Below, in pieces: positions 11,701 to 55,144 of a stretch of 64,000 nt of DNA (its first letter is position 1; each line of letters opens with the position of its first letter). The stretch comes from Corallococcus macrosporus DSM 14697. Its GTDB lineage: Bacteria > Myxococcota > Myxococcia > Myxococcales > Myxococcaceae. The translations under genes were made by a program, and so were the position numbers. The notes under the pieces are model-generated. The model was not told the DNA's origin. It ran no database searches and was given only the letters and a program-made list of their open reading frames with translations. The stretch spans positions 4,256,501 to 4,320,500 of the forward strand of contig NZ_CP022203.1 in the NCBI RefSeq assembly GCF_002305895.1. The letters run 5' to 3'.

Positions 11701-13304
11701 CCGTGGACGGCCGCGAACGGGAGGACCACGCCCGCTTGCTGCGCGCGCTGGAGGCCCGGGACTTCAAGGTGGAGCGCGTCGTGTATCTCTGGAGCCTGGA
11801 TGAGTCCGGAGCGGACTTCGATGAGGCCCAGGCGCGCGGCTTCTTCGGTGTGCTGCGGCTGGCGCAGGCCCTGTCCAGCGTGGAGTCGCCCGCGCCCGTG
11901 GAGTTGACGGTGGTGGGCCGCGAGGCGCTGGAGGTGGAGAGCGCCGACGCGGTGGCTCCCGAGCGCGCCACGCTGCCGGCGCTGTGCAAGGTGATTCCGC
12001 AGGAGCTGGACACCGTGGCCTGCCGTTACGTGGACGTGCGCGCTCCCTCGGTGGACGTGCTGCTGCGGGAAGTCACATCGGAGGCCCTGGAGCCCGTGGT
12101 GGCCTGGCGTGGAGCGCACCGGCAGGTGCAGGCGTACGAGCCGCTGCGCATCGAAGCGGACACTCCGGTGACCTGGCCCCTCAAGCAGCGCGGCGTCTAC
12201 CTCATCACGGGCGGCCTGGGCGGGGTGGGGCTGCGGATGGCGGACCATCTGGCTCGCACGAAGCAGGCTCGGCTGGTCCTGGTGGGGCGCACCGGCGCGG
12301 AGAAGGACGTGGATGGGCGCCGCCTGCGCGCGGTGCGGGCGTTGGAGGCCGCGGGCGCGGAGGTGCTGGTGGCTCGCGCGGACGTGGCGGATGAGGCGCA
12401 ATTGCGCGCGGTGCTGGCGGAGGTGGACGCCCGCTTCGGAGCGCTGGATGGCGTCATCCACGCGGCGGGGCTCGCGGGTGACGGCGCGGTGGCGTTGCTG
12501 GGCGGGATGGACCCGGCGACGTGCGCGCCGCACTTCCGGGCGAAGGTGCATGGCACGTACGCCCTGGAGCGAGCGCTGGCGGGCCGCACGCTGGACTTCG
12601 TGCTGTTGGTGTCCTCCAACGCCACCGCGTTGGGCGGGCTGGGGCTGGGCGCCTACGCGGCGGCCAACGCCTTCCTGGACGCCTTCGCGGCGGCGCGCTC
12701 GGGGCGGGGCGGCACGCGGTGGTTGAGCACCAACTGGGACGGCTGGCCGCTGGATTCAGCCGAAGGCGCGAAGGCCATCCAGACCAGCATCGACCAGTTC
12801 GCCATGACGCCCGCCGAGGCGGTGGAGGCCTTCCGCCGCGTGGTGGAAGCGCCGCTGGAGGGGCAGGTGCTGGTGTCCACGGGCAACCTGGACGCGCGCG
12901 TGGCGCAGTGGGTGCGGCGCGAGGGCGCGGGGGCGAAGAAGGACGCGGGCGGCGCGTTGCACTCGCGGCCCATGCTGGGCACCGAGTACGTGGCCCCCAC
13001 CGATGACGTGGAGCGCGCGCTGGTGCGCGTGTGGCAGGAGCAGTTGGGGCTGGAGCAGCTTGGCATCCACGACAACTTCTTCGACCTGGGAGGCAATTCG
13101 CTCCTGTGGCTGAAGATTGTCGGGCGCATGAAGCGGGAGCTGGGGCGGGATGTCCCCCTCACCAGCGTCTTCGAGGCCCCCACCGTGGCCACGCTGGCGA
13201 AGAAGCTGGGACAGGGGCCCGCCCCCGCGGAGAGCACCGCCGCCTTCGAGTCCAGCCAGAGCCGCGGGGCGCAGCGCAGGGAGCGCCGCAGCCGCCGCGA
13301 GTAG
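8778..13304 (+). CDS. Type I PKS module KS-AT-KR-ACP
   Basis: Single-module polyketide synthase of 1508 residues. KS at about 15-440 with Cys in TGCSTSLVATH (near 186), VEAHGTATPLGDP and NVGHLDAAAG; AT with FPGGGAQYPDMG, GHSLGEY (near 631) and VAAHS at the specificity/His position; KR with GLGGVG (near 1146) and intact active-site residues: Ser in VSSNAT, Tyr and Asn in YAAANAFLDAF (Tyr 1293); ACP with LGGNSLLWL (Ser near 1440). This is the only one of the three KRs in the window with a complete active site, so it should give a beta-hydroxy intermediate. No LDD motif is visible in the KR. The C-terminus is an arginine-rich tail (RGAQRRERRSRRE) that looks like a docking segment. ATG 8778 has AGAGG upstream. 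The next PKS gene begins 48 bases downstream. Confidence 0.95.
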   Translation: MGRHTRYEGDASLAVAIVGMAARVPGAEDVDAFWRLLREGREAITFFTSEAMKALGVEPGWLANPNFVKAAPVLERPGRFDAALFGYAPREAELLDPQHRIFLECAWAALEHAGYAPGRVQVSTGVFAGSSLSSYLLFNLLSRAEFQQAEDTFPAMVGNDKDFLATRVAYHFNLKGPALTVQTGCSTSLVATHLACQSLLGYQCDVALAGGVSVHMPQRAGYHYQDGGISSPDGHCRAFDAKGQGTLFGSGAGVVVLKRLEDALNDGDTVHAVIRGSAINNDGAMKVGFTAPGVEGQSEVIARAQAVAEVSPESISYVEAHGTATPLGDPVEVQALTEAFRAGTDKRGFCGLGSVKTNVGHLDAAAGVTGLLKTVLALEHGELPPSLHYEKPNPRIDFENSPFYVNATLKPWPEGDTPRRAGVSSFGIGGTNAHVILEEAPVTLPGDAARPWQLLVLSAKTPSALETQTAALLAHLQAHPEQQLADVAWTLQVGRRPMELRRVVVCEDRASAVAALESKDPQRIFTLAPGNGTPSAVFMFPGGGAQYPDMGRGLYASEQVFQEAVDRCCELLRPRLGFDLRPVMYPDAANATEAAQRLKRTSLALPALFTVEYAVARLWLSWGVKPEALIGHSLGEYAAACLAGVFSLEDALALVVLRGKLFEELPGGGMLSVPLPEAELRPLLGASLSIAAMNGPAQCAVAGAVEAVEALAAELTKREVEFRRIPIDVAAHSHLVEPILARFQSFVGTLTRNAPTLPIVSNVTGTWMTPEEAVDPVYWTRHLRQTVRFGDGVRTLAARPGRVYLEVGPGRTLGTLARLQLNGPKAPAVLSSLRHPQDPVPDDAFLTTTVGRLWASGVEVDWSAVHGGTRRLRVPLPTYPFEGQDYWLAPEASSSRGRGVARKSADVAGWFYLPSWQRAPLLPKAGPVTPRGWIVYQDAGGVGAALAARLEQQGHRVVRVTPGPGFRQVAERDFTVDGREREDHARLLRALEARDFKVERVVYLWSLDESGADFDEAQARGFFGVLRLAQALSSVESPAPVELTVVGREALEVESADAVAPERATLPALCKVIPQELDTVACRYVDVRAPSVDVLLREVTSEALEPVVAWRGAHRQVQAYEPLRIEADTPVTWPLKQRGVYLITGGLGGVGLRMADHLARTKQARLVLVGRTGAEKDVDGRRLRAVRALEAAGAEVLVARADVADEAQLRAVLAEVDARFGALDGVIHAAGLAGDGAVALLGGMDPATCAPHFRAKVHGTYALERALAGRTLDFVLLVSSNATALGGLGLGAYAAANAFLDAFAAARSGRGGTRWLSTNWDGWPLDSAEGAKAIQTSIDQFAMTPAEAVEAFRRVVEAPLEGQVLVSTGNLDARVAQWVRREGAGAKKDAGGALHSRPMLGTEYVAPTDDVERALVRVWQEQLGLEQLGIHDNFFDLGGNSLLWLKIVGRMKRELGRDVPLTSVFEAPTVATLAKKLGQGPAPAESTAAFESSQSRGAQRRERRSRRE

Positions 13305-13352
13305 GGCGCCCGCCCGCGCTCCTTCGAATCGAGAGAACCTGGAGACAACACC

Positions 13353-16300
13353 TTGGACAACCAGCTCCCGCAGGAGTTCGACGACGCCGACGTCGCCATC
13401 ATCGGCATGGCAGGGCGCTTCCCCGGCGCCCGGGATGTGGCCACGCTGTGGGCCAATCTCCGTGAGGGCGTGGAGTCCATCCGCTTCTTCACCCTGGAGG
13501 AGGCGCGCGCCGCCGGTGTGCCGGAGGCGCGGTTGGAGGACCCCGCCTTCGTGAGGGCCGCCGCCATCCTGCCGGAGCCCGAGTCCTTCGACGCGGCCTT
13601 CTTCGAGATGCCACCGCGCGAAGCGGAGATCACGGACCCCCAGCACCGCGTCTTCCTGGAGTCCTGCTGGGAGGCGCTGGAGCACGCGGGCTACTCACCG
13701 CGTGACTACGCTGGCGCCATCTCCGTCTTCGGTGGCGCCACGCTCAACACGTACCTGCTGATGAACCTGGCGCGGAACCCCCGGGTGCTGGAGTCCTTCG
13801 AGCCGGTGCAGGTGAACATCGGCAACGGGGGCGACTTCCTGGCCACCCGCGTCTCGTACAAGCTCAACCTGCGTGGCGCCAGCCACACCGTGCAGAGCGC
13901 GTGCTCCACGTCCCTGGTGGCGGTGCACCAGGCCTGCCAGAGCCTGCTCAATGGCGAGTGCGACATGGCGCTCGCGGGCGGCGCGTCCGTCAACGTGGGC
14001 TTCTTCAACGGCTACCGGTACGCGGAGGGGGGCATGGCCTCGCCGGACGGGCACTGCCGGCCCTTCGACGCGAAGGCGCAGGGCACGCTCTTCGGCAGCG
14101 GCGCGGGCGTGGTGCTGCTGAAGAAGCTGCGCGCCGCGGTGCGGGACGGCGACACCATCCACGCCGTCATCAAGGGCTCGGCCACCAACAACGACGGCGG
14201 GCTGAAGGCGGGCTTCACCGCGCCCAGCGTGGACGGCCAGGCGCAGGTGGTGGCGGAGGCGCTCGCGGCTTCCGCCCTGGAGGCGGACGACATCAGCTAC
14301 GTAGAGGCCCACGGCACCGCCACGCCGCTGGGCGACCCCATCGAGGTGCAGGCGCTCACCAAGGCCTTCCGCGCCACCACCCAGCGGCGGCGCTTCTGCG
14401 CGTTGGGCTCGGTGAAGGGCAACCTGGGCCACCTGGACGCCGCGGCGGGCATCACCGGCCTGATGAAGACGGTGATGGCGCTGAAGCACGGCGAGCTGCC
14501 GCCCAGCCTTCACTATGAGCGTCCCAACCCGGCCATCGACTTCGAGGCCAGCCCGTTCTACGTCAACGCCACGCTCAAGCCCTGGCCCGCCGGGGAGGCG
14601 CCTCGGCGCGCGGGCGTGAGCTCCTTCGGGGTGGGCGGCACCAACGCGCACGTGGTGCTGGAGGAGGCCCCCCGCTTGCCCGCGAGCGCGCCCTCGCGGC
14701 GGCCCTGGTATCTGCTGCCCTTGTCGGCGCGTACGCCCTCTGCGTTGGAGGCGGTGACGACGCGGCTGGTGGAGGCGCTCAAGGACTCGCGGAGCGCGAA
14801 TCTGGAGGACGTGGCGTGGACGCTCCAGGCCGGGCGTCAGCGTTTCCAGCACCGTCGCTTCGTGCTGGCGAGGAGCGCGGAGGACGCGGTCGGCGCGTTG
14901 TCGGAGCCCCAGGGGCCTCGCGTCTTCACCGAGGCGCAGGACGCGGTGGAGCGGTCCGTGGCCTTCCTCTTTCCGGGGCAGGGCTCGCAGCACGCGGACA
15001 TGGGCCGGGCGCTGTACGAGGCGGAGCCCGTCTTCCGCGCCGAGGTGGACCGGTGCGCGGAGCTGCTGAAGCCGCACCTGGACGGACTGGACCTGCGGAC
15101 CGTGCTGTACGCCCGGCCCGAGGCCGCCGAGGTGAGCGGGGCGAAGCTGGTGCGGACAGCGCTCACGCAGCCCGCGCTCTTCACGGTGGAGTACGCCACC
15201 GCGCGCCTGTGGATGTCCTGGGGCGTGGTGCCTCAGGCGATGTTGGGGCACAGCATCGGTGAATACGTGGCCGCGTGCCTCGCGGGCGTCTTCTCGCTGG
15301 AGGACGCGCTGCGGCTCGTGGCCGCGCGAGGGCGGCTCATGCAGGGCCTGCCGTCCGGCGCGATGCTGGCGGTGCCGCTGTCCGAGGACGAGGCGCAGCC
15401 CTATCTGCGCGCGGGCGGAGCCGGGCTGAGCCTGGCGGCCCTCAACGGGCCCATGCAGTGCGTGTTGTCCGGGACGCACGACGCCATCGATGCGGCGCGG
15501 AAGTCGCTCCAGGAGGCGGGAATCCAGTGCCAGCCGCTGGTGACGTCGCATGCCTTCCACTCGGCGATGATGGACGCCATCCTGGAGGACTTCGCCGCGC
15601 AGGTCGCCACGGTGCCTTTGGCCGCGCCCACGCTCCCGTTCGTCTCCAACGTCACCGGGACCTGGGTGACCGCGGAGCAGGCGACGAGCCCCCGATACTG
15701 GGCCGACCACCTGCGCGGGACGGTGCGCTTCGCGGACGGCCTGCACGCGCTCTTCTCCGATGGCAGGCGCGCGCTCCTGGAGGTGGGCCCGGGGCAGGTG
15801 CTCGGGAAGCTGGCGAAGCGCCACCCGGCCTTCACGGCCGCGCACGCGGTGCTGGCGTCCATGCCGCCGCCCAAGGATGACGGGGCCTCCGCTGGGGCGG
15901 CGCCGCTGGCCTATGAGACGCTCGGCCGGCTCTGGCAGGCAGGGGTGCGGGTGGACTGGAAGGGCTTCCATGGCGCGGACCTGCGCTACCGGGTGCCGCT
16001 CCCCACGTATCCCTTCGAGCGCCAGCGCTTCTGGATTGAACCCGCCGACGTCGAGCCGCTGCCTCGTGTCACGAACGCCGCCCAGCCCGTGGAGACAGCG
16101 CCTGAAGCCGCCGCGCAGGCGGAGCCGGTGGGAGAGGCCACCAGCGCACGGCCAACCCAGCCGCGTCCGCAGTTGCGCAGTGCCTATGTCATGGCGAGCA
16201 CGCCCCTCCAGCGTTCGTTGGTGGAGCTGTGGCAGGAGATGCTCGGCGTGGCGCCCATCGGCATCCAGGACAACTTCTTCGAACTCGGCGGTGACTCGCT

Positions 16301-16538
16301 CATCGCCGTGCAGCTCAGTGGCCGCATCAAGAAGCAACTGGGCCTGGACCTGCCCGCATCGAGCCTCTACGAAGGCGTCACCGTGGAGGCCCTGGCGGCG
16401 TTGCTGAAGCCGGCGGAGGCGGAGGTTCAGGAGCGCCGGGAGGAGGCGCCAGCGGCGGATGCGTCGCTCCTGCGCCGCAAGCAGACCCTGGCGCGGCAGC
16501 GCGACCTTCGTCGCTTCGATGACGACGATGATGCATGA
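13353..16538 (+). CDS. Type I PKS module KS-AT-ACP
   Basis: Polyketide synthase module of 1061 residues without reductive domains; it should leave a beta-ketone. KS Cys in SACSTSLVAVH (near 184), VEAHGTATPLGDP, NLGHLDAAAG; AT with FPGQGSQHADMG, GHSIGEY (near 632) and HAFHS, the pattern usual for malonyl-CoA; a linker rich in Ala, Pro and Glu; ACP with LGGDSLIAV (Ser near 980). It starts at TTG 13353, preceded by GGAGA at 13341-13345; the first downstream ATG lies inside the conserved KS start (IIGMAGRFPG), so it is not a credible start. The N-terminus is acidic (EFDDADV) and the upstream protein ends in a basic tail, which fits docking between the two. The C-terminal tail has a basic helix-like stretch followed by FDDDDDA. 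Same transcription unit as the 8778 gene. Confidence 0.94.
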   Translation: MDNQLPQEFDDADVAIIGMAGRFPGARDVATLWANLREGVESIRFFTLEEARAAGVPEARLEDPAFVRAAAILPEPESFDAAFFEMPPREAEITDPQHRVFLESCWEALEHAGYSPRDYAGAISVFGGATLNTYLLMNLARNPRVLESFEPVQVNIGNGGDFLATRVSYKLNLRGASHTVQSACSTSLVAVHQACQSLLNGECDMALAGGASVNVGFFNGYRYAEGGMASPDGHCRPFDAKAQGTLFGSGAGVVLLKKLRAAVRDGDTIHAVIKGSATNNDGGLKAGFTAPSVDGQAQVVAEALAASALEADDISYVEAHGTATPLGDPIEVQALTKAFRATTQRRRFCALGSVKGNLGHLDAAAGITGLMKTVMALKHGELPPSLHYERPNPAIDFEASPFYVNATLKPWPAGEAPRRAGVSSFGVGGTNAHVVLEEAPRLPASAPSRRPWYLLPLSARTPSALEAVTTRLVEALKDSRSANLEDVAWTLQAGRQRFQHRRFVLARSAEDAVGALSEPQGPRVFTEAQDAVERSVAFLFPGQGSQHADMGRALYEAEPVFRAEVDRCAELLKPHLDGLDLRTVLYARPEAAEVSGAKLVRTALTQPALFTVEYATARLWMSWGVVPQAMLGHSIGEYVAACLAGVFSLEDALRLVAARGRLMQGLPSGAMLAVPLSEDEAQPYLRAGGAGLSLAALNGPMQCVLSGTHDAIDAARKSLQEAGIQCQPLVTSHAFHSAMMDAILEDFAAQVATVPLAAPTLPFVSNVTGTWVTAEQATSPRYWADHLRGTVRFADGLHALFSDGRRALLEVGPGQVLGKLAKRHPAFTAAHAVLASMPPPKDDGASAGAAPLAYETLGRLWQAGVRVDWKGFHGADLRYRVPLPTYPFERQRFWIEPADVEPLPRVTNAAQPVETAPEAAAQAEPVGEATSARPTQPRPQLRSAYVMASTPLQRSLVELWQEMLGVAPIGIQDNFFELGGDSLIAVQLSGRIKKQLGLDLPASSLYEGVTVEALAALLKPAEAEVQERREEAPAADASLLRRKQTLARQRDLRRFDDDDDA

Positions 16539-16553: not shown

Positions 16554-17792
16554 TCAGGGCGTCTTGCGAATGCGAGCGTTCTGCGTGCCGCCGGCCGCCA
16601 TGGCCATGGCCACGCGTGAATAGGCAGACACGTACGGCTGAAGCACGGTGCGTGACCACCGCCCCGGAATCCACAGGTAGCTGTACAGCCCGTGCCGGCG
16701 CGCGCCCCTGCGCCGCTTCGTCTCGTATCCGCTGGCGCCCAGCCAGAGCTTCTTGGCGCCGAGCGCGTAGGCCCGGCGCAGGGGCTCGTAGAAGGCGAGG
16801 TTGAAATACAGCGGTGTCTCGGAGGCGCCGGCCTCGGCGCGGCCGACCCGGTAGAACCACAGCTCCTCGTGCTTTTGCAGCAGCAGGGAGAAGCCGATGG
16901 GGGCGTCGTGCTGGTAGGCGACCACGGCCTCCGCCTCGGGCGAGACGTGTTGGTCGAGCGCGGTCCAGAACGCGGAGGGGTGGCGGAGGTGCTCGTTGCC
17001 GTACTTGGAGTACGTCACCTCGTAGAACCGCTCCAACTGCTCCGCCATCGCGCCCATTTCAGTGATGCGCTCGAAGCGGACGCCCGCGTCCCGGGCGTGG
17101 GCCATCTCCTTCTTGATGACGCGCCGGACGTCGCTCTTGAACTGTCCCAGGTACGCGTCGAAGGTGTCCCCCGGGACGTCGATGACGTTGTCGTCGTAGA
17201 TGAAGACCTCCTGGAACGCCGCCGCGTTGAGCGTCTCTCTCAGCGTCGTGTCGTCCTGGGGCACGCCATAGAAGTAGAGCGGCAGGCGCTCCTCGGTCGC
17301 GAGCTCCCGGAGCCCTTGAAGGATGAGCTCCCGGGCCTGCGTCGCGAGCTCCGCCGACGGCGCGGCGCAGTGGATGCTGCTCCGCATGCTGAGCGGGCTG
17401 GTGACGAACACGCCTCCCTCGAAGCCGGCGCCGGCGCGCCAGGCCACGTTACGGTAGAGGTCCGCCGCCGCGATGGCCACCCGGCTCCAGGCTGGACCGT
17501 TGGCGAAGCCCTTCCTCCAACTGGTGAAGAGGAAATGCTCCAACGAATAGGGCGTGTAGATGGTCTTGCTGCGGGTGATGAAACACGGGCAGAGCGCGAT
17601 GGGCGTGCCCTGCTGATAGGCAATGGCATATCGCAGGGACAGCGCCCCCCGGGCCATGGCGGACAGGTCGACCGCGTCCAGCATCCGGAACCAGCGCCGG
17701 CCGAAGAAGACGCTCGACTCCGAGGTGAGGACATCCAGCTCCGCGTCACTCAGGTGGCTGACGGAGTCGTGGAATTTCAGGGTAAGCGTCAT
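16554..17792 (-). CDS. FemAB-like / GNAT-fold transferase
   Basis: Protein of 412 residues resembling the FemAB-like (peptidogalycan-type) GNAT superfamily: a first half with FGRRWFRMLD and a C-terminal acyltransferase-like half with FKSDVRRVIKKEMAHAR, FYEVTYSKYG, PIGFSLLLQKHEELWFYRVG and LYFNLAFYEPLRRA. Family members transfer acyl or aminoacyl groups to amines; FemABX relatives use aminoacyl-tRNA. No signal peptide or membrane span. It converges on the PKS gene ending at 16538 (15 bases apart) and follows the GST gene by 31 bases in the same direction. A tailoring acyl- or aminoacyl-transfer step on the cluster product is plausible but inferred. Substrate unknown. Confidence 0.72.
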   Translation of the reverse strand: MTLTLKFHDSVSHLSDAELDVLTSESSVFFGRRWFRMLDAVDLSAMARGALSLRYAIAYQQGTPIALCPCFITRSKTIYTPYSLEHFLFTSWRKGFANGPAWSRVAIAAADLYRNVAWRAGAGFEGGVFVTSPLSMRSSIHCAAPSAELATQARELILQGLRELATEERLPLYFYGVPQDDTTLRETLNAAAFQEVFIYDDNVIDVPGDTFDAYLGQFKSDVRRVIKKEMAHARDAGVRFERITEMGAMAEQLERFYEVTYSKYGNEHLRHPSAFWTALDQHVSPEAEAVVAYQHDAPIGFSLLLQKHEELWFYRVGRAEAGASETPLYFNLAFYEPLRRAYALGAKKLWLGASGYETKRRRGARRHGLYSYLWIPGRWSRTVLQPYVSAYSRVAMAMAAGGTQNARIRKTP

Positions 17793-17823: not shown

Positions 17824-18510
17824 TCAGCCGTTGAGGAGCTGGACGGCGGGGTGCCGCTTGGGGCTGTCGAGGTGCCGCGCCAGGTTGGGGCGCTCCTTCA
17901 TGCGCCCGAAGAACGCGAACAGCCCCGGGTAGGTGCTCTCCAGCAGGTCCTGGAGGCCGTTGTCCACGAGCATCTCCAGGAAGCCGAAGACGCTGGTGTC
18001 CGCCACCGTCACCGAGGTGCCGACGAAGAAGCCGTCGCCGCTGCCGTTGCGCTTCAGCAGCCGCTCGAAGTGCGCGAGCCACTGCGGCAGCTCCTCGCCC
18101 AGGATGAGGGGCAGCATCTCGGAGAGCTGGTCCGGCGTGAACGAGGTCAGGCTGCGCGCGCGCGCGGACACCTCCTCGACGCCTTCAATGATCATGTCGC
18201 AGGCGGCCGCCTCTCGCGCGTCCTTGCCGTAGAGGCCGCGGGTGCGCGCGACGTGGCGCAGGATGGCCAGGCTCTGCACGACGCAGAAGCCGTCCGCCTC
18301 CTCCCACAGCGGCACCTTGTCGAAGGCGAGCTTGCCGGCGGCCTTGATGGCCTCGAAGGCGGGCGTCTTCACCTTGGCCTGCACGTCATAGGTGCCCAGG
18401 TCGATGTCTTCGTACTCCGTCCCGGACTCGGCGAGCAGCAGGCGGATCTTCTCGGCGATACCTCGACCCGTGAAATAGGAGAGGCGCGGCAATGATGATT
18501 GAGCGGTCAT
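17824..18510 (-). CDS. Glutathione S-transferase family protein
   Basis: Protein of 228 residues with the thioredoxin-like GST N-terminal fold (LSYFTGRGIAEKIRLLLAE; Tyr in YFTGRG at the usual catalytic position; VPLWEEADGFCVVQSLAILRH with the cis-Pro and the Gln-Ser glutathione-binding pair) and an all-helical C-terminal half (SVTVADTSVFGFLEML). The pattern resembles sigma/mu-like GSTs. It could conjugate glutathione, isomerise or open an electrophilic intermediate, or protect the cell. Placement inside the cluster, leading the FemAB-like gene and divergent from the LanB-like gene, argues for a role in the pathway, but the reaction cannot be read from sequence. Confidence 0.88.
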   Translation of the reverse strand: MTAQSSLPRLSYFTGRGIAEKIRLLLAESGTEYEDIDLGTYDVQAKVKTPAFEAIKAAGKLAFDKVPLWEEADGFCVVQSLAILRHVARTRGLYGKDAREAAACDMIIEGVEEVSARARSLTSFTPDQLSEMLPLILGEELPQWLAHFERLLKRNGSGDGFFVGTSVTVADTSVFGFLEMLVDNGLQDLLESTYPGLFAFFGRMKERPNLARHLDSPKRHPAVQLLNG

Positions 18511-18581: not shown

Positions 18582-20888
18582 TTGAAGCCCGAAGCACCCG
18601 CGCTCGTTTCTCTTGCTCCAGGAATGGCCCTGTGGCCCTGGGCCGCGCTGCGTGGCGCCGGCTTCCCCGTCCAGGACGCGCTCCGGCTCGCCGCGCCCAC
18701 GGCGTCCTCCGCCGCCGATACATGGCTCGCCGCGGGAGCCGAAACACCGGGTGACGCACTCCGCACCGCGTTCGACGCGGACCTGTTGTCCATCAGCGCC
18801 GCATTGCGTGCCCTGGCGGGGGAGCCACACCTTCGCGAGGCGCTCGTCTGGCAGAACCGCCACGCCTACAAGACGGGGGTCGAGCCACTGGCGGCCCTTC
18901 CCGCCACCGCGCGCAACAGCAAGGCCCGGCAGCGCGAGCGCCTGGTGGCCTCCTATGTCCAGCGCTACAGCACCAAGAACGACACCATCGGCTTCTTCGG
19001 CCCGGTGGGGTGGGCGCGGCTGACGCCGTCGAGCGACGCGCTGCGCTGGGTTCCTGGAGAGCAGCTCGTCTCGCGACGGACGGTCTACTTCGAGACGTGG
19101 TGCATGGACACGCTCGGCGCGGCGCTGGCCCAGGATGCGTCCCTGAGACGCTGGGCGGCGCCCCGGCTGCTGCCGTATTTCAGGCTGGAGGGCCACCTGC
19201 TTCACGGCCCCATGCCCACGCCCGTGGAGCTGAGCCCGGAGCAGGCACAGTTGCTCTCACGCTGCGACGGCACGGTCAGCGCCGCGGCGCTCGCGCGGGA
19301 GTTCGCCGGGGGTGACAGCTCCGCCTTCGCCAGTGAGGAGGACCTCTACTCGGCGCTCGAACAGGCCGTGGGTTTCGGCGTCCTGCTCTGGGGCTGGCAG
19401 GTGCCGCTCGTGGTCCGGCCGGAGGTGGTGCTGCGGGGCGCGCTGCTGGCCATCGGGGACGCGGACGCGCGGGCCCGTGCGCTCGCGCCGTTGGAGCAGT
19501 TGGAGCGCGCGCGGGCCGCCGTCGAAGCCGCGGCGGGCGCACCCGAGGCGCTGGACGCCGCGTTCGCGGAGCTGGAGCGCGTGTTCAACGACGTGACGGG
19601 CGCGGCGCCAACTCGCGCGGCGGGGCAGACCTACGCCTCGCGGACGCTCATCTACGAGGACTGTGAGCGGGATGGCTCGCTGGAGCTGGGCGCGCCGTTG
19701 TGCGAGCGGCTCGGTCCCGTGCTGGAGCTGGTGTTGACCGGGGCGCGCTGGCTGGTGGGGGAGGTGACCCGCGGCACCCGCGCGAGCCTGGACGCGCTCT
19801 TCGACAAGCTGTCCGAGGGCGGGGCGCCGGTGTCGCTCACCACGCTTCAGCTCGCCTTCGTCCAGGGGCTCCAGAACCCGGCGACGACGGAGCAGATGAT
19901 GCCCGTGGCCCAGGCCGTCGCCGAGCATCGGCGGCGCTGGCGGGAGCTCTTCGCGCTGGAGGCCGGCGTCCGCCGCCAGTCGCGCACCGTCGAGTCGCTG
20001 CGTCCCAAGGTGCGTGAGGCCTTTGGAGCGGCCGGTCCCGCGTGGCGGAGCCGCTGGCATGCCTCGCCGGACGTGATGATTGACGCGGCGAGCGAGGCAG
20101 CGGTCCGCGCCGGGGACTACCAGCTCGTGTTGGGGGAGCTGCACCTGTGCAACAGCATCTCCTCGCTCTTCGTGGAGCAGCACCGGGCGCCCGAGGAGCT
20201 CTTCGCGCTCGCGGAGCGCTGTGCCACCGGGGCGGACGTCGTCCCGGTGTTCCCCAAGGCCGAGTGGAGCCAGCGGACCTTGCCGTGTCTGTTCCCGCGT
20301 GACAGCCAGTACTACCTCTCCGGGCAGGAGCCATCTCCGCGGCCGGACGTCCGTGCCCTCCGCGCGGGCGACATGGTGGTGGAGCGGCGGGACGGCGGGC
20401 TGGAGGTCCTCGACCGCGTGAGCGGACGCCGCTTCGGCCTGGTGGAGTTCATGGCCGTCTTCCTGGAGCAGCGGTGCGCCAGCATCTTCGACCTGGCGCT
20501 CACCGATGGGTACTCGCCTCGGGTGACGGTGGACGGCGTGGTGGTGGCCCGGGAGCGCTGGAGCGTGCCGGTGGCGAGCCTGGGGTTCGCGGGCCTCACG
20601 GAGGCGCTGACCCAGTGGCTGGAGGCGCGGCGCTGGCAGCAGGCGCAAGGCATCCCGCGCTTCGCGTTCTTCAAGGTCGCGACGGAGCGCAAGCCCTGCT
20701 TCGTGGACTTCGACAGCCCCTTGCTGGTGGAGATGATGGCCAAGCTGGTGCGGCGGTCCGCGGAGGCGTCGCCGGATTCTCGCGTCCAGTTCTCGGAGAT
20801 GCTGCCGGACCCGGAGCACCTCTGGCTCACGGATGCGGCCCAGCGCCGCTACACCAGCGAGCTGCGGCTCGTCTGCGAGATGTCCTGA
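18582..20888 (+). CDS. LanB-like (lantibiotic dehydratase N-domain) protein, stand-alone
   Basis: Protein of 768 residues related to the N-terminal glutamylation domain of LanB lantibiotic dehydratases. The best landmark is LREALVWQNRHAY followed by YVQRYSTKNDTIGFFGP, matching the family block that in classical LanBs reads R-x-x-x-R-x-x-PFG. The length fits only that domain; the C-terminal elimination (SpaB_C-type) domain is absent. In the family this domain moves an amino acid from aminoacyl-tRNA to a peptide, and small LanBs lacking the elimination domain include the PEARL peptide-aminoacyl-tRNA ligases. No precursor-peptide gene is visible nearby, so the substrate may be an assembly-line product (inference). 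Start TTG 18582 has AAGGGG nine bases upstream; ATG 18624 is an alternative. The ATP-grasp-like gene follows 55 bases downstream. Confidence 0.7.
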   Translation: MKPEAPALVSLAPGMALWPWAALRGAGFPVQDALRLAAPTASSAADTWLAAGAETPGDALRTAFDADLLSISAALRALAGEPHLREALVWQNRHAYKTGVEPLAALPATARNSKARQRERLVASYVQRYSTKNDTIGFFGPVGWARLTPSSDALRWVPGEQLVSRRTVYFETWCMDTLGAALAQDASLRRWAAPRLLPYFRLEGHLLHGPMPTPVELSPEQAQLLSRCDGTVSAAALAREFAGGDSSAFASEEDLYSALEQAVGFGVLLWGWQVPLVVRPEVVLRGALLAIGDADARARALAPLEQLERARAAVEAAAGAPEALDAAFAELERVFNDVTGAAPTRAAGQTYASRTLIYEDCERDGSLELGAPLCERLGPVLELVLTGARWLVGEVTRGTRASLDALFDKLSEGGAPVSLTTLQLAFVQGLQNPATTEQMMPVAQAVAEHRRRWRELFALEAGVRRQSRTVESLRPKVREAFGAAGPAWRSRWHASPDVMIDAASEAAVRAGDYQLVLGELHLCNSISSLFVEQHRAPEELFALAERCATGADVVPVFPKAEWSQRTLPCLFPRDSQYYLSGQEPSPRPDVRALRAGDMVVERRDGGLEVLDRVSGRRFGLVEFMAVFLEQRCASIFDLALTDGYSPRVTVDGVVVARERWSVPVASLGFAGLTEALTQWLEARRWQQAQGIPRFAFFKVATERKPCFVDFDSPLLVEMMAKLVRRSAEASPDSRVQFSEMLPDPEHLWLTDAAQRRYTSELRLVCEMS

Positions 20889-20943
20889 GCGGTCCTCACT
20901 CTTCCCAGCGTCTCACCCCCATTCGATGAAGGAGCCGTACGCC

Positions 20944-22383
20944 ATGCGCGTGCCCGAGCCGATCCCCGGCGGACAGTTCTCTCCAGAGGTCAAGGCGCTG
21001 CACGGCGCGCTGTCTCCCGCCGCCGCCGCGTTCCTCGAGTACGCCGAGCGCGTCCCCGAGGTCTTCTCGCGCCACAAGTTCCAGGCGCACGAGGCTTCGC
21101 CGCTCATCCCCTATGAGCTGCATGCGTGGCCCACCTTCGTCGAAGGCGCGGTCGCGCGGCAGATGCGGGAGGTCGCCCCGGCGCTGTGCCGCCTCATCAA
21201 GCGCGCGCCCCGGCGCCTGCTGGGAGACGCCGGCCGAGCAGCGGAGTTCTACGGAATCCCGCGGGCGCGCGCCGACGCGGCGTTCGCTGCCCTGGCTCGC
21301 ACGGATGACGCCCGCGGGGCCATTGGCCGCGGTGACTTCATCCATGACGGCGCCACGTTCAAGTGCGTGGAGTTCAACCTGACCGCGGGCGTGGGGGGCT
21401 GGGAGACCGCCATCCACGTGCAGCAGGTGCTGGCGCAACCTGCGATTCAGCGCTTCGCCGTGGAGCAGCGGCTGCGCGTCCGCCAGCCTCGGACCTTGCG
21501 CGACTTCTTCGCCAACATCGTGGACACGGTGCGCCGCGACCTCGACTGGGAAGGGGAGTGCAACATCGCCATCCTCTTCACCCCGAGCATCCTGCCGGCA
21601 GGCCCCCTGGCGGAGCAGGCGTCCCGGTTCTTCACCGGCCAGCTCCAGGAGGTCCTCCAGCCCGAGGGCGCTCGCGGGGAGGTCTTCATGACGACGTACG
21701 GCTCGGTCGAATCCGGGCCCGGCCACCGCCTCACGCTCCGAGGCAAGCGGCTGCACGCCGTCGTGGAGTATGACGCGCGAGACCGCCTGGCGATGGCGGG
21801 CGCGGCCTATGCCGAGCACGCCCAGGCCGCGTTCGATGCCCGCGCGGTCAGTCTCTTCAACGGCCCGGCGCAGGACGTGCTCGACGACAAGCGCAACCTC
21901 ACGCTGCTGTGGGAGCACGTGACGTCCGCCGCGCTGTCCGAGGCGGAGCAGGAGGTGGTGCGCCGGAACGTGCCCTGGTCGTTCCGGGTCCAGCGGGCCC
22001 ACGTCGAGCGCGACGGCACGCGGTACTCCATCCCGGAGCTGCTGGCCTCGCGGCGCGAGTCCTGGGTCCTCAAGCCGGGACGGGACTACGGCGGCGAGTC
22101 GGTGCTGCTGGGCGCGTCGACGCCCGCCGCGGAGTGGGACACGGCGGTGCGCAAGGCGCTCGACGCGGGCGGCTGGGTGGCGCAGGAGCGCGTGCAGCCG
22201 ACGTCCTTCCACACCCTGGGGCCAGAGGGCACGGTGGTGCCCCACAGCCTGGTCTGGGGCCTCTTCGTCCTGGGGGAGACCTACGGCGGGCACTTCCTCC
22301 GCCAGGGCCCCATGCAGCGAGGCGCTGGCGTGGTGAACGTCGCGCAGGGCGCCATGGTGGGCGCCCTCATCGAGCTGGAGTGA
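20944..22383 (+). CDS. Putative circularly permuted ATP-grasp ligase, copy 1
   Basis: Protein of 479 residues, paralogous over its whole length to the product of 34709-36124. Shared blocks are KCVEFNLTAGVGGWE, DWEGECNIAILF, LDDKRNLTLLWE, SWVLKPGRDYGGESVLLG, GGWVAQERVQP and a C-terminal VVPHSLVWGLFVLGETYGG. The lysine-containing LKPG-x-x-YGG loop and the ExN block resemble ATP/Mg sites of circularly permuted ATP-grasp enzymes such as glutathionylspermidine synthetase relatives, which join a carboxylate to an amine through an acyl phosphate. I infer a ligase; the family assignment is tentative. ATG 20944 is chosen because AAGGAG (20929-20934) sits nine bases upstream; ATG 20926 is in frame but lacks this. 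It is co-transcribed with the LanB-like gene and ends 15 bases from the convergent hydroxylase gene. Confidence 0.6.
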   Translation: MRVPEPIPGGQFSPEVKALHGALSPAAAAFLEYAERVPEVFSRHKFQAHEASPLIPYELHAWPTFVEGAVARQMREVAPALCRLIKRAPRRLLGDAGRAAEFYGIPRARADAAFAALARTDDARGAIGRGDFIHDGATFKCVEFNLTAGVGGWETAIHVQQVLAQPAIQRFAVEQRLRVRQPRTLRDFFANIVDTVRRDLDWEGECNIAILFTPSILPAGPLAEQASRFFTGQLQEVLQPEGARGEVFMTTYGSVESGPGHRLTLRGKRLHAVVEYDARDRLAMAGAAYAEHAQAAFDARAVSLFNGPAQDVLDDKRNLTLLWEHVTSAALSEAEQEVVRRNVPWSFRVQRAHVERDGTRYSIPELLASRRESWVLKPGRDYGGESVLLGASTPAAEWDTAVRKALDAGGWVAQERVQPTSFHTLGPEGTVVPHSLVWGLFVLGETYGGHFLRQGPMQRGAGVVNVAQGAMVGALIELE

Positions 22384-22398: not shown

Positions 22399-23265
22399 TT
22401 ACTGCTCGCGGTACTCGCGGCCCAGCTTCTGCTGCTTGCGGATTCGGCCCACCGCGCTCAGGGCGATGGTGGGCACGAGCCGCGGGCCCAGCTTGGCCAG
22501 CATCGACCACGTCCACCACCAGTAGTTGGTGGCGATGGCGTCCTCCACCGTGTACACGCGGTGCCACCAGCCATAGGGCAGGTAGAGAATCTCACCGGCC
22601 TCCAGGATGAAGTCGTAGTCCGGGGCGAGGCCGCCGGGGAGCTGCTCCGGCTTGCCGCCGTGGGGCGTCAGGTCGTGCGCGCTCACGACGGACCAGGGGT
22701 GGCTGAGCTTCGCGGGGCTCAGCGCCTTGTCGCGGCTGGGCGAATAGAGCTGCCACTGCTTGCGGCCCACCATGACGGCGTGCAGGTTGTGCGCGCGGTC
22801 GAGGTGGAGCTGGGTGAAGGTGCCGCGCGGGCCCATGAAGAAGAGCTGCTCGGTGAGCTTGCGCTGGACGGCGTACTCGTCGAAGCGGACGTCCTTGTGC
22901 AGCTCCGGCAGGGTGCGGAACAAGTCATTGCCGATGAGGTAGCCCGGCGTCTCTCCGTCCTTCGCCTTCAGCGTGTCGACATACTCCTGCATGCGCATCT
23001 TCCGCACGCGGCCCACGCGCTCCACGCCGCCCGTGGCCTTGGCGTTGTACTGGAGCCACTCCACGGGGACGCTCACGTCGCGGTACTTCGTGGCGAAGTA
23101 GTCGAAGGTCCACCGCTCGGCGGCGGGCCAGCCCTTCATCGCTTCGGTGAGGATGACGGGTTTGTTGTTGGCTTCGATGCGCTCGTAGAAGGCCCGGTGG
23201 TTGTCGAGCGGCATGCGCTCGGGGACCAGGGGCTCGGGGACCTTCTGGGCGGTGGCGGTGCTCAT
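22399..23265 (-). CDS. JmjC/cupin-like Fe(II)/2-oxoglutarate hydroxylase
   Basis: Protein of 288 residues with a JmjC-type cupin. The iron ligands are visible as the H-x-D of TQLHLDRAHNLHAVMVG and the distal His of YLPYGWWHRVYTVED; WQLYSP and the Trp-rich TNYWWWTW stretch are typical of the cupin_8/JmjC hydroxylase group. Members hydroxylate side chains of amino acids or peptides with O2 and 2-oxoglutarate. The gene closes a nine-gene minus-strand run and follows the small gene by 22 bases; GGGAGAG precedes its ATG. It probably hydroxylates a residue of the peptide or a carrier-bound amino acid (inference). Confidence 0.85.
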   Translation of the reverse strand: MSTATAQKVPEPLVPERMPLDNHRAFYERIEANNKPVILTEAMKGWPAAERWTFDYFATKYRDVSVPVEWLQYNAKATGGVERVGRVRKMRMQEYVDTLKAKDGETPGYLIGNDLFRTLPELHKDVRFDEYAVQRKLTEQLFFMGPRGTFTQLHLDRAHNLHAVMVGRKQWQLYSPSRDKALSPAKLSHPWSVVSAHDLTPHGGKPEQLPGGLAPDYDFILEAGEILYLPYGWWHRVYTVEDAIATNYWWWTWSMLAKLGPRLVPTIALSAVGRIRKQQKLGREYREQ

Positions 23266-23287: not shown

Positions 23288-23611
23288 TCAGGCCGCGCTC
23301 TCGCTCTGGCTCTGGGCCTTCTGCAGGCGCTCGAAGTTGTTGTCGATGCCGTGGCGCACGTCCGCCAGCATGTGGATTTCGAACTCCTGGTACGGGAAGG
23401 ACGGCCAGGCGCGCAGCAGCGTCAGCAGCGACTCGTGGGAGTCGGCGTTGAGGATGCAGAGGCCCATCTTCGGGAGGACGTAGTAGGCACAGTCGAAGGT
23501 GCCGTCCTGGAGGCGGGCGCCCACCCAGTCACGGACAGCGCGGTTGAGCGCGATGGGGTCCTGGGGCTGGGGGCCGGAGGTGCGGTCCTTGACGTAGACG
23601 AGGTACTTCAT
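23288..23611 (-). CDS. Small conserved protein, YCII/muconolactone-isomerase-like
   Basis: Protein of 107 residues starting MKYLVYVKDR, with strand-helix-strand spacing (CAYYVLPKMGLCILNADS, then ESLLTLLRAWP and EFEIHMLADV) like small ferredoxin-like dimeric barrel proteins (YCII, muconolactone isomerase, DUF3303 types). I do not assign a reaction. The start is fixed by AAGGAG (23620-23625, minus strand) nine bases upstream of ATG 23611. It sits between the thioesterase and hydroxylase genes in the same run. Proteins of this fold in biosynthetic clusters are often small isomerases or cyclases, which is only a possibility here. Confidence 0.75.
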   Translation of the reverse strand: MKYLVYVKDRTSGPQPQDPIALNRAVRDWVGARLQDGTFDCAYYVLPKMGLCILNADSHESLLTLLRAWPSFPYQEFEIHMLADVRHGIDNNFERLQKAQSQSESAA

Positions 23612-23637: not shown

Positions 23638-24390
23638 TCAGCGAGTCGAGGCGGGCCGCAGCCTGGTGAGGCTCCGGCGGATGTTCTGCAGCAGGCCGCG
23701 CGGCGTCTGTCGCAGGAAGAAGTGGTCCCCCAGGAAGGTCTGGGAGGCGAAGGGGCCGGAGGAGAGCTGGCGCCACGCCTCCGTTGCGTCGTCGGGCACG
23801 TAGTCGTCGAAGCCGCGGAAGGCGGAGAGCGGGCACGTCAGCGCGGGGCCCTGCTTCCACGTGTAGCCCTCACACACGGCGGTGTCCGCGAGCATGGTGG
23901 CGCGCATCAGCGTCAGCAGCTCCTCCGCCATCTCTCCGGACACGGCGCGCGACTCGCCCAGGCGCCGGGCCTCGGACGCGTCGATGTCATGGGTGGCCGT
24001 GGCCGGCGTGTGCGCCTGGAGCGTGTGCGGCGCCCGGTAGCTGGCGACGAAGAGGTGCAGGGGCGCGGGGAGGCCGCGCTCCCGCAGCGCCCGCGTCAGC
24101 TCGTAGGCGAGCAGCGCGCCCATGCTGTGACCGAAGAGGGCGAAGGGCTTGTCCGCGTGCTTCGCCACCACCTCCACCAACGGCGCGATGACTTCCGGCA
24201 AGGTGCGCAGGGGCGCCTCGCGCAGCCGGTTCTCCCGGCCGGGGAGCTGGACCGGGCACACCTCGAGGTCTTGCCCCAGCTCCGCCTGCCAGGTGCGGAA
24301 CAACGACGCGCTGCCACCCGCATGCGGCAGACAGAACAGCCGCGCCCAGGCGCCCGGCTGCGGGACGTGGAAGGCCAGCCACTCCGTCAT
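23638..24390 (-). CDS. Type II (editing) thioesterase
   Basis: Protein of 250 residues with the alpha/beta-hydrolase thioesterase pattern: RLFCLPHAGGSASLF near the N-terminus, catalytic Ser in FGHSMGALLAYEL (near 92), an Asp in the FRGFDDYVPDDA region and the catalytic His in LGDHFFL (near 222). Stand-alone enzymes of this family remove misloaded or stalled acyl groups from carrier proteins of PKS/NRPS lines. It overlaps the glycosyltransferase gene by four bases (ATGA), showing translational coupling. No integrated release thioesterase is visible in the window, so product release must be encoded outside or done otherwise. Confidence 0.92.
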   Translation of the reverse strand: MTEWLAFHVPQPGAWARLFCLPHAGGSASLFRTWQAELGQDLEVCPVQLPGRENRLREAPLRTLPEVIAPLVEVVAKHADKPFALFGHSMGALLAYELTRALRERGLPAPLHLFVASYRAPHTLQAHTPATATHDIDASEARRLGESRAVSGEMAEELLTLMRATMLADTAVCEGYTWKQGPALTCPLSAFRGFDDYVPDDATEAWRQLSSGPFASQTFLGDHFFLRQTPRGLLQNIRRSLTRLRPASTR

Positions 24391-25664
24391 GACCGCACCT
24401 CCCGTCCGTTGCCGCCGACGAGCTTCTGGTACAGGGCGAGGTTGGCGGCCACCATGCGCGGCAGGCTGAACAGCTCCACCACGCGCTGCTGGCCGGCCAG
24501 CCCCATGCGCCGGGCCCGCTCCCGGTCCTCCAGCAGGGAGAGCTGCGCGTCGGCGAGCGCCGCGACGTCCACCTCGCGCGGCCCTCCCGGCGCGCCCGGG
24601 AGGACGGGGACGAGCAGGCCCGTCTTCTCGTGGTCCACGATCTCCGACGGACCACCGGAGCGGGTCGCCACCAGCGGGAGGCCGGAGGCCATGGCCTCGA
24701 TGGCCGTGTAGCCAAAGGGCTCGTACAGGGACGGCACCAGCGCCAGGTCCGCGATGCGGTGCAGGAGCCCGAGCTGCTGGCGCGGCAGCTTGCCCAGGAG
24801 CTTGATGCGCTGGCGCAGGTGCGCGTAGCGCTGGGACAGGTCCTGGACCATCTGCGTGGACTCGCGCGAGTCCGTGCCACCGGCCAGGAGGAAGCGCACG
24901 TTCGGCCGCTTCGCGAGCACGCGCTCGGCGGCGGCGAAGATGGCGCTGATGCCCTTCATGGGGTGGAGCCGGCCCGTGTACAGGACGACCGGGTCCTCAG
25001 GCGTGGCCACCGTGGCGCGCAGCCGGGCGTAGTCCTCCGGCGAATGCGAGGGCTGGAGGAAGGGGCCCGCGTCCATGCCGCAGTGGATGGTGTGCAGCAG
25101 CGCGGCCGGCATGCCGTAGGTCTCCCGGATGAGCTCGCTCATGGAGTCACTCACCGAGATGACGTGCTGCGAGCCGTCGTAGAAGCTGCGCTCCTCCTCC
25201 AGAATCTCCGGGTCCGGCGTCTGGCCCCACCAGCGCTCCGCGGGCTCGGAGATGTAGTGGCTGGTCCCCAGCACGGGCACCCCGGCCTCCTTCGCCAGCG
25301 CCCGGGCGGCGCGGTGGGTGTGCCACTGGTGGAAGTGGATGAGGTCGGGCTTCTCCTCGCGGAGGAGCTCGCGGCCGCGGTGGAGCAGGTCGTCGTTGAA
25401 GACGCGGATGCCGCCGACCAGGGAGAGCTTTCCCGCCTGGGAGAGGCTGCCCTGGCTGGGCGGCATCATGTGCACGGTGAGGTTGGGCTCGCGGAGCACC
25501 GCGGGCTCGCCGGGCGTGTACGCCAGGACGGTGACCTTGCACCCGCCGCGCGCGAGCCCTCGGGCCAGCTCGTAGACGTAGGTGCCCACGCCGCCGGCCA
25601 CGTTCGGGGTGTACTCCATGGCCAGGAGGAGCGCCTTCAGGGGTGGGGAATTGGGAGGTGCCAT
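24387..25664 (-). CDS. Glycosyltransferase, GT4-like (GT-B fold)
   Basis: Protein of 425 residues. The N-terminal half begins with the donor/acceptor loop EYTPNVAGGVGTYVYELARG and contains IHFHQWHTH. The C-terminal half has VVLYTGRLHPMKGI, the nucleotide-sugar pocket VPSLYEPFGYTAIEAMASG with the two glutamates of the E-x7-E motif, and VATRSGGPSEIV. These are typical of retaining GT4 enzymes using NDP-sugars. It sits 33 bases after a PKS gene and is coupled to the thioesterase, so the final compound may carry a sugar (inference). No sugar-biosynthesis genes are in the window, so a common cellular NDP-sugar is likely. Some GT4 enzymes in this position instead serve glycogen or cell-surface metabolism, but the operon context argues against that. 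Confidence 0.87.
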   Translation of the reverse strand: MAPPNSPPLKALLLAMEYTPNVAGGVGTYVYELARGLARGGCKVTVLAYTPGEPAVLREPNLTVHMMPPSQGSLSQAGKLSLVGGIRVFNDDLLHRGRELLREEKPDLIHFHQWHTHRAARALAKEAGVPVLGTSHYISEPAERWWGQTPDPEILEEERSFYDGSQHVISVSDSMSELIRETYGMPAALLHTIHCGMDAGPFLQPSHSPEDYARLRATVATPEDPVVLYTGRLHPMKGISAIFAAAERVLAKRPNVRFLLAGGTDSRESTQMVQDLSQRYAHLRQRIKLLGKLPRQQLGLLHRIADLALVPSLYEPFGYTAIEAMASGLPLVATRSGGPSEIVDHEKTGLLVPVLPGAPGGPREVDVAALADAQLSLLEDRERARRMGLAGQQRVVELFSLPRMVAANLALYQKLVGGNGREVRS

Positions 25665-25697: not shown

Positions 25698-28600
25698 CTA
25701 ACGGCTGGCCGCGCCCTCCTTGGCGGCGAGCTCCGCCAGCATCCGCAGCAGGGCCTCCACCTCCGGGTCTTCATGGCCAGGGCGCTTGCGCTGCTCGGCC
25801 ACCAGGGCCGCCAGCCGGGCCACCGTCGGTGCCTCGAACAGCGACTGCAGCGGCACCGTGAAGCCGAAGGTGTCCCGCAGCCGTCCCACCACCGTGGTGG
25901 CCAGCAGGGAGTGCCCGCCCAGCGCGAAGAAGTCGTCGTGGAGGCCCACCGGCCGCACGCCCAGGACGTCCTCCCAGATGCGGGCCACCACCTGCTGGTC
26001 CTCCGTCTCCGGGGCCACGTACGCCACCGCCAGGGCGGGGCGTGAGTAGCCCGTGGCCGGGGCCTCGTCGGGCGCTCGCGCCTCGGGGGCGCGCTCCGCG
26101 GACGGCGCGGCGGCCAAGGCGCGGTGCCCGTCCGGGGAGACCCAGTAGCGCTTGCGCTCGAAGGGGTAGGTGGGCAGCCCGACGCGGAGGCGCTGCTCCT
26201 CGCCTCGGAAGGCCTCCCAGTCCACGTCCACGCCAGCCAGCCAGAGCTGCCCCAGCGCGCCGAGCAGCACGGCCGTGTCCGCCTGCTTCGTGTCCGGATG
26301 GCGCAGCGACGTCACCGTGGTGGGCGGCTGCCGCAGCGCACCGGGCTGGGACGCGAAGGTGCTCAGCGTCCGGCCGGGGCCGACCTCCAGCAGCACCTGC
26401 GCGGGTTGGAGCTGCGAGAGGCCCGCGGCGAAGCGGACCGGCTGGCGCAGGTGGCGGGCCCAGTAGCCGGGGTCCTTCGCCTCGGCGGCCGTCACCCAGG
26501 TGCCGGTGACGTTGGAGAGGAAGGGGATTTGCGGCGCGGACAGCTTCATCCGCCGCAGGCGCTCGGTGAAGGGCGCGACGATGGGCTCCATCATCGCGGA
26601 GTGGAACGCGTGCGAGGTGTGCAGGCGGCGCGACTGGACGCCCCGCGCGTCGAGCCGTGCCTTCAGCGCGTCCACGGCGTCGACGGGCCCGGCCACCACC
26701 GTCATCGACGGCGCGTTCACCGCGGCCACGGAGAGCCGGGCATCCAGCGACGACACCAGCTCCGCCTCCGACAGCGGGACGGAGAGCATGGCCCCCGGCG
26801 GCAGCTCCTGCATGAGCTGGCCCCGCGCGGCCACCAGCCCCAGCGCGTCCGGCAGGCTGAAGACGCCCGCGAGGCACGCGGCCACGTACTCGCCGATGCT
26901 GTGGCCAATCATGGCCTCGGGCTTCACGCCCCAGGACATCCACAGCCGCGCCAGCGCGTACTCGATGGTGAAGAGGGCCGGCTGGGCCAGCCGCGTCTGC
27001 TGCAACTGGCGCTGGGCGTCTTCCGCGCGCTGGGCGGTGGGGAAGAGGAGCTCGCGCAGGTCCTGCTTCAGGTGCGGGATGAGCCGGGTGGCGCAGTCAT
27101 CCACGTCCGCGCGGAAGGTGCGCTCGCGCTCGTAGAGCCCCTGTGCCATCCCCGCGTACTGCGCGCCCTGGCCGGGGAACATGAACACTGTGGGGCGGCC
27201 CGTGCGCTCCTCGGCGGCGGAGAGCTGCCGCGCGACGTCGCCCAGGGCGGCCAGCGCGTCCTCCCGGCCCTGGCAGACGATGGCGCGGCGGTGGGGATGG
27301 CGGCGGCGGCCCACCTGGAGCGTGTACGCCACGTCCGCGGGCTCCAGGCCCTTGTTGGCGCGCAGGTGCTCCTCCAGCCGGGACGCCTGCGCGGCCAGCG
27401 CCGTGGGCGTGCGCGCCGACAGGAGCAGGAGCTGGTGCGCGCGCGCGGCCTTCACGGGCGCGCGGGCGGGGGGCTCCTCCAGGATGACGTGGGCGTTGGT
27501 GCCGCCCATGCCGAAGCTGCTCACGCCCGCGCGCCGGGGCTCCCGGGCGGGCGCCTTCCACTCGCGCAGCTTCGTGTTGACGTAGAAGGGGCTGGAGTCC
27601 CAGGGGATGTTGGGGTTCGGCGTCTCGAAGTTGAGGCTGGGCGGCAGCTTGCGGTGCTTGAGCGCCAGCGCCGTCTTGATGAGGCCTGCCACGCCCGCCG
27701 CCGCGTCCAGGTGGCCCACGTTGGGCTTGATGGAGCCCAGGGCGCAGGTGCGCGGTCCCTCCGCCTCGTCGCCGAAGGCGCGGATGAGCGCCTGGACCTC
27801 AATGGGGTCCCCCAGCGCCGTCCCCGTGCCGTGCGCCTCCACGTAGCCGATGCTCCCGGCGGAGACGCCCGCGCTGCCCAGCGCCTCGGAGATGACGGCG
27901 GCCTGGCCCTCGACGCCGGGCGCGGTGTAGCCCACGCGCGCGGCGCCGTCGTTGTTCACCGCGGAGCCCTTGATGACGGCGTAGATGGGGCTGCCATCCG
28001 CCAGCGCGTCCTCCAGGCGCCGCAGCGCCACCACGCCCGCGCCGCTGCCGAAGACGATGCCCTTCGCCTGCGCATCGAAGGGACGGCAGTGCCCGTCCGG
28101 CGACAGGATGCCGCCGTCCACGTAGCGGTAGCCGCCCTGAATCTGGAGGTTGATGGACACGCCGCCCGCGAGCGCCAGGTCACACTCCTGGTTGAGCAGG
28201 CTCTGGCAGGCGACGTGGACGGCGACCAGCGACGTGGAGCACGCGCTCTCCACGTTGAAGCTGGGGCCGCGCAGGTCCAGCTTGTACGCGGCCCGCGTGG
28301 TGAGGAAGCTGCCCGCGTTGCCCAGGTTGAGCTGGAGCGGGTCCGCGGAGCGCATCAGCTCCGCGTTGCCCATCAGGTTGAGCAACAGGTACGTGCTCAG
28401 GGCCTGGCCGCCGAAGACGCCCACCAGCAGCTCGGCGGGTGGGGCGCCGTGGCCCGCGTCCTCCAGCGCCTCCAGCGCGCACTCCAGGAAGAGGCGCTGC
28501 TGCGGGTCCATCACCTCCGCCTCGCGCGGGGTGTAGCCGAAGAAGGCCGCGTCGAAGCCCGCCACGTCCTCCAGCCGCGAGGCCACCTTCACGAAGTGCG

Positions 28601-33407: not shown

Positions 33408-33544
33408 GGCTGTCGACGAACTCACGTCCAGGAAGTGAAGAGAGGTTGGGACGGCGGGCTCCGCGATACACACACGCACCCCGGCGCCCGCTCACCTGGG
33501 GCGCCATGGTGTCGTCGGGTCGCCGAGCGGGGCGGAGCGCCGGC
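33408..33544. other. Intergenic gap, flavin monooxygenase / PKS, with inverted repeat
   Basis: A 137-base gap between two minus-strand genes. GGCGCCC (33483-33489) and GGGCGCC (33499-33505) form an inverted repeat with a nine-base loop. No T-run follows. No gene or clear promoter is visible. Confidence 0.35.
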
Positions 33545-36124: not shown

Positions 36125-36171
36125 CGCCCCGCCTTGCGTCCCCGCCACGTGTGACATTATCCGCGCCAATT

Positions 36172-37999: not shown

Positions 38000-55136
<17,137 letters not shown>

Positions 55137-55144
<8 letters not shown>

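Follow-up and report, generated by a model that had tools for sequence, protein, structure and literature searches.

What does a stand-alone LanB N-domain protein do in the middle of a PKS/NRPS cluster? The question is raised by a 64,000-nucleotide stretch of the genome of Corallococcus macrosporus DSM 14697 (hereafter the window), which encodes such a protein of 768 residues. The nearest named relatives of this genome are Myxococcus species. PEARLs are ATP- and aminoacyl-tRNA-dependent peptide ligases, and the first-pass annotation proposed that the window protein may likewise append an amino acid taken from tRNA, in this case to a non-ribosomal product.

The LanB gene and its surroundings

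The LanB reading frame starts with TTG just after a GGAAGG run, and its GC3 is 0.91. An 80%-identical orthologue has ATG at the aligned start. The gene is found in ten Myxococcus genomes including the source genome, with 79-86% identity in the nine others, and its dN/dS against one orthologue is 0.17. These orthologues and the low dN/dS indicate that the gene is real and under purifying selection. The protein matches PF04738 (Lant_dehydr_N) over model positions 3-647 of 649 (E 3.5e-28, 98.6 bits, cut-off 28), confirming its earlier description as a stand-alone LanB N-domain protein. The elimination domain (PF14028, Lant_dehydr_C) was said to be missing, and this holds beyond the protein itself. 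A Pfam profile search found none in the protein, and nothing in the 8.97 Mb genome (8,973,512 bp, single contig) rises above the cut-off of 24.4 bits; the best score is 15.4 bits.

The gene lies inside a PKS/NRPS cluster, as first described, with PKS and NRPS genes on both flanks (see the table), and the PKS/NRPS frames run on beyond both window ends. The related Myxococcus genomes that were compared share the cluster around the LanB gene. The last PKS-NRPS frame of the window breaks within the A domain and continues to 68236, past the window. The orthologous genome G136 has one open 4440-aa ORF at this place, and the break is either a frameshift in the source strain or an assembly error.

Table. 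Features of the cluster around the LanB gene, in window coordinates
Feature	Position	Strand	Remarks
PKS module KS-AT-KR-ACP	3783..8408	-	
PKS module KS-AT-KR-ACP	8778..13304	+	
PKS module KS-AT-ACP	13353..16538	+	
FemAB-like/GNAT-fold protein	16554..17792	-	412 aa; PF04339, 69.6 bits
Glutathione S-transferase-like protein	17824..18510	-	
PEARL-like LanB N-domain protein	18582..20888	+	768 aa; PF04738
CP-ATP-grasp-like ligase (ATPg)	20926..22383	+	ORF list start 20833
Cupin_8/JmjC-like protein	22399..23265	-	
Conserved protein	23288..23611	-	107 aa; not in ORF list; weakly muconolactone-isomerase-like, not significant
Stand-alone thioesterase	23638..24390	-	
Family 4 glycosyltransferase	24387..25664	-	
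PKS module KS-AT-ACP	25698..28778	-	
PKS module KS-AT-KR-ACP	28803..33479	-	
MsnO8-family luciferase-like monooxygenase	33545..34630	-	
Second CP-ATP-grasp-like ligase (ATPg2)	34709..36169	-	49% identical to ATPg; copy also in Corallococcus
Cyclic-peptide-type ABC exporter	36231..37925	-	
NRPS	37931..55144	+	5737 aa; five A-domain motifs (first FAAL-like), five C motifs, none ureido type
PKS-NRPS ORF	54987..60818	+	KS-AT-ACP-C and start of A domain

No precursor-peptide gene was noticed near the LanB gene at first, and a closer look agrees. The intergenic gaps scanned around the LanB gene are 15-71 nt and leave no room for a scaffold-peptide gene adjoining it. The sole conserved small gene nearby encodes the 107-aa protein. 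A 79%-identical counterpart occurs in two Corallococcus clusters without a LanB gene, and the 107-aa protein is therefore not the substrate of the LanB protein. A hidden precursor peptide at the locus was rejected on the gap scan and this distribution.

Those two clusters, from genomes taken as Corallococcus by kinship (G075 and G088), are smaller relatives of the window cluster. They retain ATPg2, the glutathione S-transferase, the monooxygenase, PKS, the glycosyltransferase, the thioesterase and the cupin. LanB, ATPg and the FemAB-like gene are missing from them. Corramycin was considered as the product and rejected, since the 12 modules described for it far outnumber those of the related Corallococcus cluster. 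The FemAB-like protein gave no convincing match to PDB sequences; it could be a second transferase, either a tRNA-dependent aminoacyl-transferase or an acyl-transferase.

The association with assembly lines extends to homologous loci. NRPS/PKS domains lie within ~10 kb in 67 of 77 such loci, and there are none at five multi-LanB loci, which serve as a rough control only (the pair at 5.6 Mb in the source genome, G117, G127, G195 C68 and G525).

Residues, fold and phylogeny

The ATP site of PEARLs is formed by Asp542, Glu801 and Arg803 in TglB; Asp542 and Arg803 are reported in PEARLs only, and split LanBs have Tyr and Leu instead (PMC11117183). The CCA end of tRNA is contacted by Tyr205 and Arg208 in BhaBCTrp (PMC11962472). 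Judged by motif order, spacing and published descriptions rather than by aligning the TglB or BhaBC sequences, the equivalent residues in the window protein are D497 (TglB 542), E760 and R762 in an E-x-R motif (TglB E801 and R803), R24 (TglB R10), E519 (TglB E564), and Y125 and R128 (BhaBCTrp Y205 and R208). H521 and K132 are also present. The match of E519 carries little weight because TglB E564 is reported not to be essential. BhaBCTrp Arg197, Gln201 and Arg429 have no clear match. R657 and F696 correspond to the adenine-site R743 and F783 of TbtB, as read off a profile alignment after correction for the deposited chain being offset by three residues. Among 51 homologues there is no variation at D497, E519, H521, E760, R762, R128, K132, R657 and F696, and hardly any at R24 and Y125. 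Loss of the tRNA-contact residues would have counted against a PEARL-type function, and Y125 and R128 are kept. Conservation of these residues does not prove that the protein uses tRNA. The residue set is PEARL-type, and the label 'glutamylation-type' that the protein had been given is wrong.

Structure prediction against LanB proteins, proposed as a check by the first-pass annotation, recovered the TbtB/MibB/NisB fold. The AlphaFold model has a mean pLDDT of 91.9. Its best PDB matches are TbtB, with a Foldseek E of 3.6e-22 and a VIA-align Z of 22.0 over 660 residues, MibB and NisB; MadB and GodF were matched as well. By sequence, neither the LanB protein nor ATPg alone gave a meaningful match in the PDB. 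The protein contains an internal RRE-like winged-helix region (residues ~188-272), which is retained in the model, though no leader peptide is known at the locus.

The closest functional precedent is SnaE from Stackebrandtia nassauensis. In work by Yu and van der Donk (2024; PMC11212132), heterologous expression of the threopeptin pathway showed SnaE to attach Thr in vivo to an NRPS/PKS product. The use of tRNA by SnaE was inferred in that study, not reconstituted. The same study estimated that about 2,000 NRPS/PKS clusters carry such genes and reported that a scaffold gene is also absent for SnaE-type enzymes (PMC11212132). The EHHLVHDG condensation motif was published for SnaA (PMC11212132). 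This motif occurs in an NRPS next to the LanB gene of genome G543, together with KS-AT, TE and ABC genes, and we strongly infer from this neighbourhood that the G543 protein is SnaE. In a 107-row tree, built with a quick method, SH-aLRT support and midpoint rooting only, this protein and the window protein fall in one 99-row clade. The other side of the tree consists of eight LanB-like, PEARL-type proteins from multi-LanB loci, including the second pair of the source genome (support 100). Within the 99-row clade, the literature searched gave a published function for SnaE alone.

The second LanB-like pair of the source genome lies at 5.605-5.625 Mb (L072, ~9228-15414) and has the PEARL E-x-R and Asp. 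In a recurrent arrangement, seen in L006, L010, L230 and many Streptomyces/Micromonosporaceae loci, a lone adenylation-domain gene stands between two LanB-like genes; in L006 and L010 an acyl carrier protein and a PLP enzyme are encoded there too. Four LanB-like proteins are encoded within 20 kb in Salinispora pacifica (L228; G195, C68), resembling multi-PEARL pathways such as that of ammosamide.

The proposed reaction and its alternatives

The fold, the residue set, the clade, the genomic context and the co-presence with an ATP-grasp gene are the basis of our reading. They suggest that the window protein is probably a SnaE-clade PEARL-like amide ligase, which would join a tRNA-borne amino acid to the NRPS/PKS product. 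By homology, the enzyme would bind ATP and phosphorylate a free carboxylate of the product or of a late intermediate. The amino group of the aminoacyl-tRNA, its CCA end held by the enzyme, would then attack the acyl phosphate to form an amide. Hydrolysis of the tRNA ester would then release a product extended by one amino acid. As for the neighbouring CP-ATP-grasp-like ligase, it probably either adds another amide bond at the same end of the product or supplies the acceptor.

In the threopeptin pathway, SnaE acts after a ureido chain reversal that yields the free carboxylate (PMC11212132). The EHHxxHDG ureido signature is absent from all assembly-line C motifs in and around the window cluster, and it was found in only one of 79 C motifs at 77 related loci. 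Ureido chain reversal was rejected as the carboxylate source on the missing signature, so the acceptor carboxylate must arise in another way. Any free carboxylate on which the LanB protein acts probably comes from a source other than a ureido C domain.

The same fold could support amide formation without tRNA. Such a ligase would phosphorylate a carboxylate and take a free or carrier-bound amino acid, perhaps from its CP-ATP-grasp partner. Next to many homologues stands a gene whose product could load or make the amine, be it a lone A domain, an acyl carrier protein or an ATP-grasp protein. The presumed ancestors of PEARLs are ATP-grasp ligases with free amines as substrates (PMC11117183). However, the matches to the CCA contacts are kept among the homologues, with R128 and K132 invariant and Y125 almost so, and in PEARLs these contacts matter for tRNA and not for phosphorylation (PMC11962472). 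We consider a tRNA-free ligase unlikely. Another alternative is a classical PEARL whose substrate would be a ribosomal scaffold peptide from a gene outside the locus and which would be unconnected with the PKS/NRPS product. The known PEARLs do use scaffold peptides, and the RRE-like fold is in place. This possibility appears very unlikely given that the locus has no scaffold gene, that the Myxococcus relatives compared keep the surrounding cluster and that the classical-type PEARL groups branch apart in the tree.

The Pfam domain and the fold are common to TbtB, MibB and NisB, and the window protein might accordingly belong to the split lantibiotic dehydratases and use Glu-tRNA to glutamylate the Ser/Thr hydroxyls of a peptide. 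Such an enzyme is highly unlikely here. The genome has no PF14028 above the cut-off, the locus encodes no precursor peptide, Ser/Thr-rich or other, and the PEARL-only D497 and R762 stand where split LanBs have Tyr and Leu. A canonical dehydratase was rejected on the genome-wide absence of PF14028 and on the same residues.

The PEARL-like addition of a tRNA-borne amino acid to the NRPS/PKS product is therefore the best-supported reading of the locus, resting on SnaE clade membership, PEARL residues and fold together with the lack of an elimination domain and a scaffold gene. The idea of the first-pass annotation is well supported by homology, but it is not new, its precedent having been published in 2024 (PMC11212132). 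The newer parts are the paired ligase and the assembly-line-free operon described below, both of them predicted.

The putative partner ligase, related operons and known systems

The ATPg gene probably starts at 20926 or 20944 rather than at the listed position, because its orthologues have a TGA upstream. ATPg and ATPg2 resemble circularly permuted (CP) ATP-grasp ligases, but ATPg alone scores 13.9 bits against the CP_ATPgrasp profile (PF14403), below the Pfam cut-off. In an hhalign comparison its family is linked, with a probability of 99.4, to a Myxococcota protein group in which some members pass this cut-off, and the profile of that group matches a putative glutathionylspermidine synthase (PDB 3N6X). 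Through this profile link ATPg may be related to CP-ATP-grasp and glutathionylspermidine synthase-like ligases. Its AlphaFold model (pLDDT 40) is unusable. The absence of both LanB and ATPg from the Corallococcus cluster indicates that the two adjacent genes were gained or lost together, which suggests that their products share a step. A search for the LanB and ATP-grasp pair in other clusters had been recommended. The pair does exist elsewhere, but within NRPS/PKS clusters it was found in Myxococcus only.

In other Myxococcota, a LanB protein of the same clade is encoded beside a PLP enzyme, a CP-ATP-grasp protein and a protein of ~460 aa that we call X. The operon comprises an oxoamine synthase-like enzyme, CP-ATP-grasp, the second ATP-grasp-like protein X and a PEARL-type LanB. 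The PLP enzyme, analysed in one member, falls among oxoamine synthases in NCBIfam and among class I/II aminotransferases in Pfam. Protein X is weakly ATP-grasp-like (hhalign probability 90.8 over 92 columns). It was found at E < 1e-50 in 11 of 195 Myxococcota genomes, always beside a LanB gene (loci L055, L056, L057/L058, L059/L060, L061/L062, L063/L064, L065/L066, L067/L068, L177, L178 and L028); three of the 11 contigs are not long enough to hold the full set of four genes. No CP-ATP-grasp gene was detected in G107. X and LanB abut or overlap in four operons. The operon loci scanned have no NRPS/PKS domains within ~20 kb or to the contig end. A CP-ATP-grasp - LanB - CP-ATP-grasp triplet occurs in G065 (L049:16970-18451 and L050 to ~2433). 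The open-access literature searched, with few subscription papers, gave no description of a CP-ATP-grasp and PEARL operon or of a LanB gene in myxobacterial NRPS/PKS clusters.

Tentatively, LanB and CP-ATP-grasp may constitute a portable amide-forming module of Myxococcota that works without a ribosomal scaffold, placed beside PKS/NRPS genes in Myxococcus or in an assembly-line-free operon. Its products might be short peptides or aminoketones, formed as free-amine ligation alternates with tRNA-dependent ligation. We regard this as a possibility on the doubtful side.

If our reading of the LanB protein holds, tRNA-dependent tailoring of PKS/NRPS products extends to Myxococcus and to a cluster that lacks the ureido chemistry from which the free carboxylate used by SnaE arises. 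As the assembly-line-free operon suggests, small molecules may also be built by PEARL-like enzymes in the absence of both a scaffold peptide and an NRPS. The linked CP-ATP-grasp gene provides a testable handle.

Comparison with known systems places the window protein closest to SnaE. With the glutamyl-tRNA-dependent dehydratases TbtB, MibB and NisB it shares the overall fold, as well as the adenine-site Arg and Phe of TbtB, but it differs from them in lacking the elimination domain and in having D497 and R762 in place of the reported Tyr and Leu. The PEARLs TglB, BhaBC and AmmB, compared by published description, have the same ATP- and CCA-contacting residues but extend a ribosomal scaffold peptide, none of which is seen at the window locus. 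SnaE is likewise a stand-alone LanB N-domain protein from a hybrid NRPS-PKS cluster without a scaffold gene, and it has the same ATP and tRNA residues and belongs to the same clade. Over the best 382 residues the two proteins share 38% identity. A ureido C domain is present in the sna NRPS, whereas none of the C motifs of the window cluster is of this type. No CP-ATP-grasp gene neighbours snaE in the region searched; the gene that directly follows the window LanB gene is CP-ATP-grasp-like.
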